Positions 42,429 through 48,165 of a stretch of DNA of 61,592 bases are shown piece by piece (position 1 is the first letter of the stretch; every line of letters begins with the position of its first letter). The DNA is from Terriglobales bacterium (GTDB lineage Bacteria > Acidobacteriota > Terriglobia > Terriglobales > Acidobacteriaceae), in contig DASTZZ010000075.1 of assembly GCA_035764005.1 (NCBI GenBank), forward strand, positions 1-61,592, given 5' to 3'. The notes below the pieces were generated by a model. That model did not search any database and had not been told where the DNA came from. It worked only from the letters and a program-made list of their open reading frames with translations. The position numbers and the translations under genes were made by a program.

Positions 42429-42674
42429 ATGAGCGCTCGTCCCCTTTTTCGAATAGTCTGGCTTGCTTTGAGTGTGCTGCAGATCGCAACCGTCGTCTGC
42501 GCTTTTGAACGCCCTGCTCACGCGTACGTCGATCCCGGATCGGGATACATGCTGCTGCAGGTGATCGGCAGTATGTTTGCCGGCGCCGTCTTCTATTTAC
42601 GTCACCGGTTGCGCCGGCTGTTTGCATTCGGAGCTCATTCCTCTTCGGAGGCCGACTCCAGCACAGAGAAGTAG
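42429..42674 (+). CDS. small membrane protein with a YVDPGSG motif
   Basis: The 81-residue protein has two hydrophobic helices (about 7-25 and 40-57), a YVDPGSGYMLLQVIGSM motif between and into them, and a short Ser/Glu-rich tail. Tiny proteins with a (Y/I)DPGSG motif accompany surface-polysaccharide gene clusters in several phyla; their function is unknown. It is the first gene of a three-gene unit; the Shine-Dalgarno of the next gene overlaps its stop. The start has GAGG 5 nt upstream. Confidence 0.75.
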   Translation: MSARPLFRIVWLALSVLQIATVVCAFERPAHAYVDPGSGYMLLQVIGSMFAGAVFYLRHRLRRLFAFGAHSSSEADSSTEK

Positions 42675-42677
42675 GAG
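42673..42677 (+). promoter_or_regulatory. Shine-Dalgarno overlapping a stop codon, deciding a TTG start
   Basis: AGGAG overlaps the TAG stop of the upstream small gene and lies 6 nt before TTG at 42684. There is no earlier start in that frame, so a TTG start with translational coupling is likely. Confidence 0.7.
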
Positions 42678-42683
42678 TATCCG

Positions 42684-44057
42684 TTGTCCTCCCCCGCTGC
42701 AACCTTTCGCGATCCCGCCGGCTCGCTTCGCATCGACGATGAGCGCGTGCTGCGTACAGTCCACCCAGAGTACGCCGAAGATTGCCTGAATTTCCTCGGT
42801 TCCGAATTGGCACAGAACTGGATTGCCAGCGGTCGTCTGGTAGAAACTCGTATTCTCTCGAGTGCGCCGGGCGAGCAACTCGAACTGGAACACCAGAGGG
42901 TTTTCTTTCCTTCCTATCCCTGGGAGTGGACGCCCAGCCAGTGGATCGCAGCCGCCGAACTCACACTCGACTTCGCCGAGCAGCAGTTGTCGATCGGCAG
43001 AGTGCTGAAGGACGCAACGCCGCTAAACGTCTTGTTTGAAGGCAGCCGACCGGTGTTTGTCGATGTCCTCTCCACCGAAGCCCGAGAGCTCGAAAATCCG
43101 TTGTGGATGGCCTATGGGCAATTCGTCCGCACATTTCTGCTACCGCTGGCTGCATACAAATATCTCGGATGGCCGCTGGCTGCGAGCCTCTCGCGGAGGG
43201 ACGGGTATGAACCGCGCGATCTGTATGCTCATCTGTCTACATTGACACGACTTCTACCCGCAGTTTTTTCGCATGTGACTCTCCCATTCCTGCTTGAGAA
43301 GAAGAACGCAAACAGCACCTCCGCGGCAAAACTGAAACAGCGACCCGAAGTCGCGCTCTACATGCACCGGCAGCGCATCAAGCGCCTGCGGCGAGCGCTG
43401 CGTGCCTTTACTCCCAAAATGGGAGCATCAAAGTGGAGCGCTTACCCTGAGAGCGCCTCGCACTACAGCTCCAGCGACCGCGACGAAAAGCGCGAGTTCA
43501 TCGAGCGGATTCTCTATACGGCCAAGCCAGCTCACGTGCTCGACATCGGCGCGAACACTGGCGAGTACTCGCGTTTAGCCGCGCACGCCGGAGCGAATGT
43601 GGTCGCCTGGGATACAGACGTTGCCGCCTCCGAGCAAAACTGGCGCGCAGCATGCGAGTCCCGGCTTCCCATATTGCCTCTGATTGCCGATGCCGCGCGA
43701 CCTACTCCGGCTCTCGGTTGGCAAAATGCGGAGACCAGTTCGCTGCTCGATCGTGCCCGCGGACGGTTCGATTTGGTGATGATGCTCGGCCTCATTCATC
43801 ATTTGTTACTCATCGACCAAATCCCAATGGCAGAGATCGCGCGTTTGGTAAATGAATTCACGACTCGCTGGGCGGTCGTCGAATGGGTTCCGGCAACGGA
43901 CGTTCGCTTTCTCGACCTTTGCCGCGGACGCGATATCCTTTACGCGCATCTCGACGAACGCGCATTCCTCAGGAGCTTCACCCAGTATTTCGAACCGGTA
44001 GCGCGGAAGCCGCTGAGCAATGGGCGCGTACTCTTCTTCCTCCTGCGGAATCATTGA
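42684..44057 (+). CDS. SAM methyltransferase fused to a kinase-like N-terminal domain
   Basis: The protein has 457 residues from a TTG start. The C-terminal half is a class I methyltransferase: VLDIGANTGEYSRLAA (about 286-301), an acidic motif II in VVAWDTDV, and LVMMLGLIHHLLL. The N-terminal 200 residues are unusual. They contain LKDATPLNVLF (Asp110, Asn115) and PVFVDVLS (Asp127), the layout of a kinase or aminoglycoside-phosphotransferase catalytic loop (D-x4-N) followed by a metal-binding Asp. NoeA-type methyltransferases with this N-terminal region are recalled, but the kinase-like reading is mine. Kinase plus methyltransferase in one chain recalls WbdD, which caps O-antigen with methyl phosphate, in reversed order. 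It is coupled to the small gene before and followed after 3 nt by a membrane AP-superfamily enzyme. Confidence 0.75.
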   Translation: MSSPAATFRDPAGSLRIDDERVLRTVHPEYAEDCLNFLGSELAQNWIASGRLVETRILSSAPGEQLELEHQRVFFPSYPWEWTPSQWIAAAELTLDFAEQQLSIGRVLKDATPLNVLFEGSRPVFVDVLSTEARELENPLWMAYGQFVRTFLLPLAAYKYLGWPLAASLSRRDGYEPRDLYAHLSTLTRLLPAVFSHVTLPFLLEKKNANSTSAAKLKQRPEVALYMHRQRIKRLRRALRAFTPKMGASKWSAYPESASHYSSSDRDEKREFIERILYTAKPAHVLDIGANTGEYSRLAAHAGANVVAWDTDVAASEQNWRAACESRLPILPLIADAARPTPALGWQNAETSSLLDRARGRFDLVMMLGLIHHLLLIDQIPMAEIARLVNEFTTRWAVVEWVPATDVRFLDLCRGRDILYAHLDERAFLRSFTQYFEPVARKPLSNGRVLFFLLRNH

Positions 44058-44060
44058 GGC

Positions 44061-45602
44061 ATGAAGGCGCAACACCTGCTCGAAGGCTGCGGCGCTGCAA
44101 TCCTGATTTTGCTCGCATATCTCTGGCCGCAGATTTCGCCAAGCCATGCTGCGTTGTATTTTTCCGTGCTGCCGGTAAACACCGTTAGCCGCGGAATTCT
44201 GATCGATCTGGTCGTTGTGGCCCTCGCCTGGGCGGCGGTCACCTTCCTCGTTGCGCGCAGCGACAAAGAGAATCGCAGTCCCGCATGGACCATCCTGCTG
44301 GCCATCGCGGTAGTTGTTGCCGTCGCGTCGGTTGCGAAGGTTGCGGAGCTCCGGCAGCGAGTTCCCAAACCGGGAATTTTGGACGCAGGCGTCCTCCTCT
44401 TGGGGTTCGCTGCCTGGCGGTGGGCGCCAGCCGTCTATACTCGCAGCATCAGCGTGTTCCGCTTTGCCCTCGTTCTGATCGGATGCTGCATCTTCTGGAT
44501 GCTGCCCAAGCTCCTCTTCGTCGCATTCCACCGACCTGCGCCGGATGCAGTTTCATTTCGGCGCCCGTCAGGCGATCCTGACGCAAGCAGCGAGCGCATC
44601 GTCTGGATTCTGCTCGACGAGCTCTCGTATCAGCAGGTGTTCGAGATTTCTCATTCGAATCTGAAGCTGCCGGCTCTTCACCAGCTCGCCAGCGAAAGCT
44701 TCTCCTTTTCGCATCTCAGCGCGCCCGGTTACTACACGGCCAAAGTCGTGCCGTCGCTGATTTTAGGCCGACAAATCGCGGAGCTGGAGAGCACGCTTGA
44801 CGGTCAAGCAATCATCCGAACAGAAAAGGATTCTCATTGGCACGCCTTAGATCCACAGCAGACGCTCTTCGCCGAAGCGCAGCGCGATGGATGGACAACC
44901 GGCGTTGCGGGCTGGTCGAATCCATATTGTCGTCTGCTCGGCAGCGTGCTCGATTCGTGCTTCTGGTATCCCGACCAGTTCACGCCGGCTTACATGTACT
45001 CGCATATGTCGCCGCAAAAATCGACAATTGAAAATGCTCTCGCGCCGCTCAGCAGCTCAGTGCGCCGGCTGATGCACGAGAAGTCGAAAGATCCGAGTTC
45101 GGTAGACTTTCACGTTCGCGACGCAGAAGGCGTGCTTGCTCCAGCAGTGAAGCTTGTTGCCGACAAAGACATCCGCTTCGCGTTCGTGCATATGCCTGTG
45201 CCGCATCCCCCGGGCGTCTACGACCGAGCTACCCAGCAAGTTCGTAACGGCGGCTCGTATCTCGACAATCTCGCATTGGCCGACCGTGACCTGCAGGCGC
45301 TGCTGGATTCATTGCATTCGGCGGATCTAGATCGTCATACCATCGTAGTCGTCTGCTCGGATCATTCCTGGCGAATCCCGCTCTGGCGCGGCGCTGCGTG
45401 GTGGACCAAAGAAGACGAACAAGCCGCGCAGACCGGCTTCGATCCTCGTCCGGTCCTGCTCGTTCACTTCCCCGGCCAGCAGCAAGGGACCGTGGTCCCG
45501 CAGGCGATGAACAGCCTCGTCATGCACGACGCCATAGCCGATCTCCTGCGCGGCCGCATTTCGAATGCAACGCAGTTTTCCCATTGGATAGGCGACTTGT
45601 AA
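44061..45602 (+). CDS. membrane-bound alkaline-phosphatase-superfamily enzyme (sulfatase/phosphoglycerol-transferase-like)
   Basis: The protein has 513 residues: about five TMs in the first 160 residues, then a soluble domain facing the outside. Superfamily signs are VWILLDELSYQ (about 186-196, metal-binding Asp), a Thr in GYYTAKVVPSLILG as possible nucleophile, and VVVCSDHSWR (metal-binding Asp-His). The layout is like LtaS/EptA-type enzymes that move phospho-groups onto envelope polymers. It starts 3 nt after the methyltransferase stop. By context it modifies the same surface glycan or lipid as the fusion protein. The exact reaction cannot be told. Confidence 0.82.
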   Translation: MKAQHLLEGCGAAILILLAYLWPQISPSHAALYFSVLPVNTVSRGILIDLVVVALAWAAVTFLVARSDKENRSPAWTILLAIAVVVAVASVAKVAELRQRVPKPGILDAGVLLLGFAAWRWAPAVYTRSISVFRFALVLIGCCIFWMLPKLLFVAFHRPAPDAVSFRRPSGDPDASSERIVWILLDELSYQQVFEISHSNLKLPALHQLASESFSFSHLSAPGYYTAKVVPSLILGRQIAELESTLDGQAIIRTEKDSHWHALDPQQTLFAEAQRDGWTTGVAGWSNPYCRLLGSVLDSCFWYPDQFTPAYMYSHMSPQKSTIENALAPLSSSVRRLMHEKSKDPSSVDFHVRDAEGVLAPAVKLVADKDIRFAFVHMPVPHPPGVYDRATQQVRNGGSYLDNLALADRDLQALLDSLHSADLDRHTIVVVCSDHSWRIPLWRGAAWWTKEDEQAAQTGFDPRPVLLVHFPGQQQGTVVPQAMNSLVMHDAIADLLRGRISNATQFSHWIGDL

Positions 45603-45714: not shown

Positions 45715-48165
45715 ATGGAACGCTACATCTGCATCCACGCCCACTTCTACCAGCCACCCCGTGAAAATCCGTGGTTAGAAACGGTTGAGGTGCAGGATTC
45801 AGCATATCCATTTCACGACTGGAACCAGCGCATCACCAGCGAGTGTTACGCGCCGAACGCGGCCTCGCGCATTCTCGATCATGAAGGCTGCATTGCGGCG
45901 ATCACGAACAACTATGCCAAAATCAGCTTCAACTTCGGCCCGACTCTCCTCTCCTGGATGGAAACTCAGGAGCCGGAAGTCTATGTCGCCATTCTTGAAG
46001 CAGACCGGCTGAGCCAGGAGCGATTCTCGGGTCACGGATCGGCGATCGCGCAGGGGTACAACCACATGATCCTGCCGCTGGCGAACAATCACGACCGTTA
46101 CGCGCAGATCTGCTGGGGTATCCGCGACTTTGAGTCCCGCTTTCATCGCATGCCCGAAGGCATGTGGCTGCCGGAAACCGCTGTCGATCTCCCAACGCTC
46201 GACATCATGGCGCAACTCGGCCTGAAGTTTACGATCCTGTCGCCGTATCAAGCCTGGCGGTATCGCCGCATCGGCGCGCGCGCATTTCGCGATGCTTCTG
46301 GAGGAAAGATCGATCCTTCGCGTCCTTACCTGGTTCGGCTAAACGAAGGGCGTTCCATTACCGTCTTTTTTTATGACGGACCTATTTCGCAAGCGGTCGC
46401 CTTCGAGAAGCTTCTGAACAGCGGAGAGCAATTTGCGAATCGACTCGCGGGCGGATTCTCCGATGCGCGCGATTGGCCGCAGCTTATGCACATCGCCACC
46501 GACGGTGAGAGCTATGGGCATCATCATCCTCATGGCGACATGGCATTGGCCTATGCACTCCAGTTCATCGAAGAAAAAGGCATCGCGAAGCTAACGAATT
46601 ATGGCGAGTACCTTGAAAAGCATCCTGCGGAGCATGAAGTCCAGATTATTGAGAAAAGTGCATGGAGCTGCTCTCACGGGGTAGGACGCTGGTTTGAGAA
46701 CTGCGGCTGCAACTCCGGTGGACGGGGCGACTGGAATCAGAACTGGCGCGGTCCTCTGCGTCACGCGCTCGACTGGCTGCGGGACACGGTCATGTCGCTC
46801 TATGAGCAACGCGGCTCGCAGCTATTTGATGATCTATGGAAAGCACGGAATGACTACATCGCCGTAATCGTCGATCGTTCCAACCAGAGCCTCGACCGCT
46901 TCTTCGCTGAAAACTCAAGCCACGAACTCACGCACGAAGAGCGCGTTGCGGCACTCGATCTGCTGGAAATGCAACGCCACGCCATGCTCATGTACACGAG
47001 CTGCGGATGGTTCTTTGATGAGCTCTCCGGCATCGAGACCGTTCAGGTGATCATGTACGCAGGCCGCGTGATTCAGCTTGCGCAGAAGCTCTCGGAATAT
47101 GATGACGGCGAGGCCATCGAAGCGGGATTTCTAGAGCGTTTGCAGCACGCGCTCAGTAACATTCCTGATTACCAGAATGCCGCAGAAATGTACCGCAGGT
47201 GGGTGAAGCCCGCCATGGTGGGCCTGGAGCAAGTGGCCGCGCATTATGCCATCAGTTCCCTTTTTGAAACCGGAGCGTCAAAGTACTCCTACACCATCGA
47301 GCCTGCCGATTACCAGACGTTCATCTACGGGAAGATGCAGCTTGCCATCGGCCGAGCGGAGGTGTGCTCGCGCGTCACCCACGAGTGCGGACACTACACC
47401 TTCGCGGTCCTGCACATGGGTGACCACTCGCTCAGTGCAGGGGTGCGCGTCTTTGCCGGAGACGAGGCTTACAAACGCACGGTGCAGGATCTGCGCCAGG
47501 CATTCTCGCGCGCCGATATCCCAGGAGTTATCCGCGCGCTCGACAAGCACTTTGGCGGACCGACTTACTCGCTCAAATCTCTCTTCCGCGACGAGCAGCG
47601 GCGCATTATGGATCACATTCTCGAATCCACCCTGCGCGAAGCCGAAGCCAGCCTGCGCGGAATCTACGAACACCATGCGCCGCTCATGCGCTTTTTGTCC
47701 GATGTGAAGTATCCCAAACCGAAAGCTTTGGCTCTCGCGGCCGAGTTCGTGATCAACGCCTCACTGCAGCGCGAGTTTCGTGCCGAGTTTCTCGATCTTG
47801 GCGAGGTTCGAAATCTGCTCAACCAGGCGCGCGATGAAGGAGTGCAGCTCGATTCTGCAGGGCTCGCATATCTCATGGAGCGCAAACTCAATGGGCTTAC
47901 CGAGCAGCTCGAACGCCATCCCAGGAACCTCGGCCTGCTGAAAAAGATTTCTTCTTTGATCGATCTTTTGCGCGAGTTGCCGTTTGCAGTCAACCTCTGG
48001 AAGGTCGAAAATCTCTATTACCAGATGTCCCGTACGGCGTATCCCAAGCTGCGCGAACAGGGCAGCGCGCCGGGCGAGTGGTTTGACAGTTTCCTTGAGC
48101 TCGGATGCAAACTTCGCATTCGAGTAGAAGCGGTACCCACGATGCAGATGGCCATCGCCACCTGA
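45715..48165 (+). CDS. GH57-like protein with DUF3536
   Basis: The 816-residue protein begins MERYICIHAHFYQPPRENPW, the typical start of this family. The GH57-like (beta/alpha)7 part has IHAHFYQPP, WLPETAVDLPTL (Glu at the nucleophile position, about residue 157) and TDGESYGHHHPHGD. The second half is the DUF3536 domain, with CGHYTFAVLHMGDHSLSAGV. GH57 enzymes act on alpha-glucans (amylase, branching enzyme, 4-alpha-glucanotransferase); this DUF3536 branch has no proven activity that I know of. No signal peptide is present, so it is cytoplasmic. It may belong functionally with glycogen-type metabolism. Confidence 0.9.
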   Translation: MERYICIHAHFYQPPRENPWLETVEVQDSAYPFHDWNQRITSECYAPNAASRILDHEGCIAAITNNYAKISFNFGPTLLSWMETQEPEVYVAILEADRLSQERFSGHGSAIAQGYNHMILPLANNHDRYAQICWGIRDFESRFHRMPEGMWLPETAVDLPTLDIMAQLGLKFTILSPYQAWRYRRIGARAFRDASGGKIDPSRPYLVRLNEGRSITVFFYDGPISQAVAFEKLLNSGEQFANRLAGGFSDARDWPQLMHIATDGESYGHHHPHGDMALAYALQFIEEKGIAKLTNYGEYLEKHPAEHEVQIIEKSAWSCSHGVGRWFENCGCNSGGRGDWNQNWRGPLRHALDWLRDTVMSLYEQRGSQLFDDLWKARNDYIAVIVDRSNQSLDRFFAENSSHELTHEERVAALDLLEMQRHAMLMYTSCGWFFDELSGIETVQVIMYAGRVIQLAQKLSEYDDGEAIEAGFLERLQHALSNIPDYQNAAEMYRRWVKPAMVGLEQVAAHYAISSLFETGASKYSYTIEPADYQTFIYGKMQLAIGRAEVCSRVTHECGHYTFAVLHMGDHSLSAGVRVFAGDEAYKRTVQDLRQAFSRADIPGVIRALDKHFGGPTYSLKSLFRDEQRRIMDHILESTLREAEASLRGIYEHHAPLMRFLSDVKYPKPKALALAAEFVINASLQREFRAEFLDLGEVRNLLNQARDEGVQLDSAGLAYLMERKLNGLTEQLERHPRNLGLLKKISSLIDLLRELPFAVNLWKVENLYYQMSRTAYPKLREQGSAPGEWFDSFLELGCKLRIRVEAVPTMQMAIAT

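Follow-up and report, generated by a model that had tools for sequence, protein, structure and literature searches.

What reaction might be encoded by three adjacent genes, the middle one of which joins a kinase-like half and a methyltransferase half in a single chain? The question is raised by a cluster at positions 42,429 to 45,602 of contig DASTZZ010000075.1 (assembly GCA_035764005.1), from a Terriglobales bacterium of the family Acidobacteriaceae; the whole stretch of DNA analysed, 61,592 nucleotides long, is called the window hereafter. An original prediction, made without database searches, had seen in this cluster a route for phosphorylating and methylating a surface polymer, after the example of WbdD, the O-antigen chain terminator of E. 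coli O9a. Judged by its homology, the fusion belongs instead to the NoeA/Lani_1194 family of kinase-methyltransferases, and its methyl step probably works as in WbdD. We put slightly better than even chances on the cluster being a NoeA-type envelope module, in which an exported glycan or lipid would be phosphorylated and methylated on that phosphate, a periplasmic phosphotransferase step following.

A three-gene cluster around a fusion protein

The features of the locus are listed here with their coordinates in the window.

42429..42674, + strand: small membrane protein gene, 81 amino acids; open reading frame (ORF) with an ATG start, the protein containing ...AHAYVDPGSGYMLLQ...
42684-44057, + strand: kinase-methyltransferase fusion gene, 457 amino acids; ORF with a TTG start
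44061..45602, + strand: gene of an alkaline-phosphatase-superfamily enzyme, 513 amino acids; ORF with an ATG start
42684..43412, + strand: kinase-like half of the fusion, residues 1-243, from the predicted fold and invariant residues
43413..44057, + strand: class I S-adenosylmethionine (SAM) methyltransferase half of the fusion, residues 244-457, from Pfam Methyltransf_23, the structural model and a WbdD profile match

The three ORFs, including that of the tiny YVDPGSG protein, are exactly those first described and are tightly coupled, with intergenic gaps of 9 and then 3 nucleotides. The TTG start of the fusion is preceded by an AGGAG that overlaps the stop codon of the first gene (start-region sequence AAGTAGGAGTATCCGTTG), as had been read for its Shine-Dalgarno. 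Pfam recognises in the fusion the methyltransferase alone, as Methyltransf_23 at about residues 268-389, which bears out this half of the earlier description. For residues 1-230 neither Pfam nor NCBIfam returned a family, and the whole fusion, searched with phmmer against PDB sequences, gave zero matches up to E 10.

Membership in the NoeA/Lani_1194 family

The relationship to NoeA appeared among plasmid proteins. A search with the fusion returned 65 records, 57 of them from Sinorhizobium, and two among the 40 listed are annotated as NoeA. Compared with the annotated noeA H20, tblastn gives 99% coverage at 26.6% identity (E 9e-31), and BLASTP against the NoeA protein gives 27% identity (4e-45). 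The genes noeA and noeB are described as host-specific genes of nodulation with a supposed role in Nod factor modification, the available portions of their descriptions giving no specific reaction.

A family of the same kind, named after Lani_1194, was predicted in a 2022 survey (PMC9758233). The accessible parts of that paper describe a kinase plus a methyltransferase, an Arg in place of the kinase Lys, conserved neighbours and a link to NoeA/NoeB; two neighbours occur in 65% and 38% of 816 neighbourhoods, the alkaline-phosphatase fold being the 38% one. The window shares this architecture, the Arg-for-Lys substitution and a neighbour of the alkaline-phosphatase superfamily: the homology is full-length, the kinase half carries Arg for Lys together with D, N and D, the class I methyltransferase is C-terminal, and a gene assigned by Pfam to the Sulfatase family directly follows the fusion. 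By its sequence, the fusion belongs over its full length to the NoeA/Lani_1194 family.

The kinase reading of this family had thus already been published, to go by the accessible text (PMC9758233), and the original prediction reached the same from the letters alone. The phosphate-methyl chemistry, the Thr nucleophile and the co-occurrence of unlinked genes reported below are absent from that text. In the survey text seen, WbdD is set beside a second family, Lcin_0519, the two being described as clearly distinct, and the word Acidobacteria does not occur (PMC9758233). Within the literature searched, the identifier Lani_1194 appears solely in that paper.

The rhizobial genes offer a close annotated comparison. 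Ensifer canadensis has the order nodL, a 71-amino-acid ORF, noeA, noeB, and NoeA/NoeB of Sinorhizobium and Ensifer share with the window the full-length fusion homology, the order small ORF, fusion and phosphatase, the R, D, N, D and His-His-Arg residues of NoeA and the Thr of NoeB. They differ by the 27% identity, by the only distant similarity of NoeB to the window phosphatase, and by their setting, since the rhizobial copy lies beside nodL whereas that of the window lies between ROK-family and GH57 genes.

A predicted kinase fold in the N-terminal half

The structural model of the full-length fusion has a predicted local distance difference test score (pLDDT) of 90.9. Searched against the PDB, this whole model returned the methyltransferase half only; a separate AlphaFold2 model of the N-terminal half (residues 4-243, pLDDT 90.7) was therefore made and searched. 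Protein kinases make up 49 of the 50 matches listed by Foldseek, with modest E values of 1.5e-4 to 1.1e-3. With VIA, every one of the 50 rows listed is a protein-kinase or kinase-homology domain (Z 9.8-10.5), in alignments that span the whole model (root-mean-square deviation 3.5-7.1, 180-200 residues aligned). The predicted fold of the N-terminal half is thus that of a protein kinase, as the original prediction had proposed from the order of a few residues. WbdD is not among the 50 fold-search rows listed for the kinase half and may stand further down. In sequence, a profile of the kinase half matched nothing in the PDB at E 10, and its profile alignment with the WbdD kinase gave no match, though both are kinase folds (that of the window predicted, that of WbdD described in the portion seen of PMC3482155).

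Four residues of this half, R24, D110, N115 and D127, do not vary in any of the 63 aligned rows, NoeA included; the rows comprise 58 distinct sequences, duplicates being collapsed and the window counted. By analogy they would correspond to K72, D166, N171 and D184 of protein kinase A (PKA), an assignment that the available text of the 2022 paper makes for its own family member (PMC9758233). The earlier reading had singled out Asp110, Asn115 and Asp127 and could have failed on a non-kinase fold or on variation at these positions; the predicted fold is that of kinases and the three residues do not vary.

A different view of this half is that it has no activity or serves as a regulator that binds nucleotides, leaving the methyltransferase and the phosphatase as the sole enzymes, with the methyl going onto a non-phosphate group. 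It could draw on the Arg that replaces Lys, on the lack of an assignable ion-pair Glu in the kinase domain of the family, as the survey text seen reports (PMC9758233), and on the many other methyltransferases that match the fusion by fold as well as WbdD does. However, D110, N115 and D127 are invariant out to phylum distance and in NoeA, and the His-His-Arg set presented in the next section matches WbdD phosphate methylation. Degenerate pseudokinases usually lose the kinase D, N and D residues. We regard an inactive kinase half as unlikely.

The methyltransferase half and its relation to WbdD

A profile of the methyltransferase half, searched against 177,635 PDB sequences, placed WbdD chains in the top four positions (E 9e-7 to 1.6e-6), the next match being at 2.9e-5. 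In WbdD, residues H132, H133 and R203 are each required for phosphate methylation, according to the text available (PMC3482155). In a global profile alignment using a plasmid-derived WbdD gene, H372, H373 and R448 of the fusion align on these three, and a second WbdD gives the same result. None of the three varies among the 63 rows, and Y254 of the same half is likewise invariant. As a control, 24 other methyltransferases, obtained from 9 of 12 genomes searched, were aligned alike: five have the His-His pair, eight the Arg and one all three, these alignments being rough and three of the proteins having no letter at the His positions.

In its methyl step the fusion probably works as WbdD does, yet it is not a WbdD. 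Both proteins have a kinase and a methyltransferase in one chain, and their methyltransferase halves are related by profile, with the His-His-Arg residues aligned. Membership of WbdD itself was rejected because the order of domains is reversed: the window has the kinase at 1-243 and the methyltransferase at 244-457, whereas WbdD has the methyltransferase (residues 7-212), then the kinase and a coiled coil. The WbdD gene adjoins wzm, wzt and a mannosyltransferase gene, the window cluster ROK-family and GH57 genes. The likeness to WbdD first proposed fits the chemistry of the methyltransferase half and not the family or the domain order, and the profiles of the two kinase halves gave no match. 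As a separate observation, a 27-kb Enterobacter plasmid (L085) carries an O9-type O-antigen set of rfbK, wzm, wzt, WbdD and wbdA, in which WbdD is annotated merely as a methyltransferase-domain protein.

A threonine-type pattern in the third enzyme

The third protein has hydrophobic segments at about residues 36-68, 71-98 and 127-157, that is, within its first 160 residues. It matches Pfam Sulfatase at 1.1e-11 and its nearest PDB sequence matches are sulfatases, which would favour a formylglycine sulfatase in a module handling sulfated polymers. Against this stands Thr226, which aligns on the sulfatase nucleophile Cys. In an alignment of 45 rows (42 distinct), 44 have a letter at this position: 43 carry Thr and one (L010) carries Ser. 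NoeB also has Thr. The likely metal ligands D186, H377, H382, D434 and H435 are conserved in these rows, NoeB included. With Thr at the position where Cys (or Ser) would be converted, a formylglycine sulfatase is disfavoured and we consider this explanation very improbable. The original prediction had left phospho- and sulfo-groups side by side; the Thr in place of Cys favours phospho- over sulfo-chemistry and makes the latter unlikely.

LtaS, EptA and MdoB are Thr-type transferases of the alkaline-phosphatase superfamily. They share with the third enzyme the N-terminal membrane segments, the superfamily domain and the Thr at the nucleophile position, and differ in that the third enzyme has no recognisable donor-specific family. 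By alignment and hydropathy, Thr, metal ligands and membrane anchor give the third enzyme the apparent pattern of a Thr-type phosphotransferase, not that of a formylglycine sulfatase.

The small membrane protein

The 81-residue protein matched no Pfam or NCBIfam family. A hydrophobic N-terminus (segment at residues 5-27) ends in AHA and is followed by YVDPGSG, a weaker hydrophobic stretch and a basic tail, the second stretch being a reading by eye below the hydropathy threshold used. The Y-x-D-P motif is present in 52 of 52 small-gene rows, which include the window and at least two duplicate rows. Ahead of the motif, Ala occupies position -3 in 40 of these rows, and Ala or Gly position -1 in 45. 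Ala at -3 with Ala or Gly at -1 is the pattern of a signal-peptidase site. Signal peptidase probably cuts just before YVDPGSG, to judge from these residues, and since they match such a site the mature protein would start with YVDPGSG outside the membrane. Literature searches for the motifs YVDPGSG and YIDPGTG found no description.

The 71-amino-acid Ensifer ORF upstream of noeA, which contains ...PAHAYLDPGTGSMLVQ..., matches the small protein of the window at 8e-9. Located between nodL and noeA (L031:3751-3966), it belongs to the YxDPGxG small-protein family, and it may have gone unnoticed as a part of the nodL-noeA-noeB operon.

The small protein also lends itself to another explanation of the fusion, as a protein-modifying enzyme: its kinase would carry out phosphorylation or AMPylation of a protein, possibly the not yet exported YVDPGSG partner, and its methyltransferase would act on the same protein. 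The predicted fold is nearest to protein kinases, the small protein is a constant partner within the family, and most rows carry the hydroxyl-bearing Y-x-D-P-G-S/T. But the substrate of WbdD, which the methyltransferase half matches best by sequence, is a sugar phosphate, and YVDPGSG would by its sequence face the periplasm after cleavage, away from a cytoplasmic enzyme. A protein substrate appears improbable to us.

Conservation and co-occurrence of the three genes

Of 60 other genomes, 6 have a full-length relative of the fusion, two further matches covering part of the methyltransferase alone, and 21 full-length loci lie on contigs titled Acidobacteriaceae, Granulicella or Acidobacteria. 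Within the phylum of the window, 81 of 396 genomes drawn, its own included, have a near-full-length fusion, a count that leaves out one partial and one split match. The small gene lies upstream on the same strand in 49 of the 58 distinct fusion sequences and downstream in one. The phosphatase falls within the fetched stretch in 40 of the 58; these stretches are often only 1.5 kb long, and two methyltransferase-only loci are left out. The three-gene arrangement is not chance, and the constant presence of the small protein beside the fusion argues for its role as an active partner.

Loci without adjoining partners are also informative. Eight fusions of one genus stand without them (L040, L041, L042 and L044-L048), and all eight genomes carry both the small gene and the phosphatase elsewhere, the two being neighbours in G160 and G423. 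Another 25 genomes of this family, seven of them from that same genus, have no full-length fusion; the small gene was found in none of these and the phosphatase in none, bar one partial match at E 3.6e-4. The absence of the fusion from these 25 rests mainly on a first look that scored the best few candidates per genome, and the null for the small gene is credible since the same query succeeded in eight of eight other genomes. Linked or not, the three genes therefore behave as one functional unit within the family of the window. As an aside, the L040 fusion has, as read by eye, a nadD-like gene on one side and an rsfS/rlmH-like pair on the other.

At greater distance, the cluster reaches Planctomycetota, Gemmatimonadota and rhizobia. 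The Planctomycetota and Gemmatimonadota copies have the same order of small gene, fusion and phosphatase, the Gemmatimonadota phosphatase being read by eye; in a deltaproteobacterial copy the small gene comes after the fusion. The conserved neighbourhood proposed earlier as a check holds within the family of the window, and further away the phosphatase was found near just 9 of 19 copies. Phosphatases annotated in Planctomycetota or read by eye in Gemmatimonadota escaped the profile, and diverged ones may have been missed in other distant loci.

Flanking genes and the nature of the substrate

The cluster of the window is flanked by a ROK-family gene on the opposite strand on one side and by a GH57/DUF3536 gene downstream. 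The latter is a large gene on the same strand (45715-48165) starting 112 bases past the phosphatase stop; it had no match in the other cluster loci compared, with flanks of 1.5 to 5 kb.

A Pfam tally of neighbours in 18 distant loci gave no clear enrichment for polysaccharide synthesis (120 proteins against 124 control proteins, figures from the 25 commonest families). The neighbour set comprised 20 stretches minus L116, whose fusion was unrecovered by the ORF caller, and L131, removed by a size limit of 50,000 residues; the control set comprised 20 stretches minus L151 (same limit), or 19 loci, 16 of the 20 stretches coming from neighbour-set genomes and four from others. Proteins above 900 amino acids, the fusion and the phosphatase matches were left out of the neighbour tally. 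Glycosyltransferase family 2 occurs in 2 of the 124 control proteins. The absence of enrichment fits a modifier acting on something made elsewhere. A surface polymer, as in the original prediction, may be the substrate, although the genes flanking distant relatives do not clearly point to polysaccharide synthesis.

Three individual loci give hints of a glycan context, read by eye or from annotation. The L054 fusion lies between export-like and chain-length-like genes, and a copy on a Smac51 plasmid is near a glycosyltransferase. A second phosphatase copy (L083:1477-3159) stands between fucose-synthetase-like and UDP-galactopyranose-mutase-like genes, a surface-glycan setting by eye.

The same absence of enrichment leaves room for a lipid-linked methyl-phosphate donor, in which the kinase would phosphorylate a membrane lipid or carrier, the methyltransferase would cap the new phosphate as a methyl phosphodiester, and the Thr enzyme outside would take over the methylphosphoryl group and place it on a surface glycan. 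LtaS uses phosphatidylglycerol and EptA phosphatidylethanolamine, which provides a parallel. If true, this variant would explain why the three genes are kept or missing together within the family, untied to any polysaccharide locus, and it would give NoeA/NoeB a reaction. We consider it a long shot.

A proposed mechanism

The NoeA-type module that we favour builds on the genes themselves, the family membership apparent from sequence, the conservation of residues and the co-occurrence within the family. In the cytoplasm, the kinase half, of predicted fold, would add a phosphate to a hydroxyl group of a glycan or lipid that is linked to the membrane or destined for export. With SAM as methyl donor, the methyltransferase half would then turn this phosphate into a methyl phosphodiester. 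The third protein, in its predicted topology anchored in the membrane with the catalytic domain outside, would act on the product after export, its Thr serving as nucleophile in the transfer or cleavage of a phosphoryl group. A membrane partner in this last step would be the small protein, after its predicted cleavage before YVDPGSG. We infer the activities, the order of the steps and the class of substrate.

Several observations weigh against this proposal. In the kinase half, an Arg (R24) stands where kinases usually have the catalytic Lys. On the methyltransferase side, one of the 24 unrelated methyltransferases also shows His-His-Arg; Tyr16 of WbdD, also needed for methylation, is either uncovered by the alignments or unmatched to Y254; a 27-row profile of the whole fusion places two arginine methyltransferases above WbdD, which takes ranks 3-5 (E 1.5e-4 to 2.1e-4); and by fold WbdD, at Z 16.6, ranks 16th among many tied methyltransferases, the highest of which reaches 17.7. 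The match of the window phosphatase to NoeB is weak in pairwise BLAST (E 0.007), despite which the two share the Thr and the metal-site residues. In 10 of 19 distant loci, 12-18 kb long, the phosphatase profile had no match, making the three-gene rule one of family level only, and the neighbours of the distant loci are heterogeneous, glycosyltransferase group 1, Wzy_C and PMT_2 each occurring in 2 of 120. Finally, a literature search whose coverage mostly excluded subscription papers found no further description of the family and no activity measurement for any of its members.

Concluding remarks

Linking the NoeA methyltransferase to the phosphate-methylating site of WbdD, and NoeB to the Thr-type phosphotransferases, would give this family a specific and testable reaction. 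With the module spread across phyla, one assay could annotate a widespread modification of the envelope.

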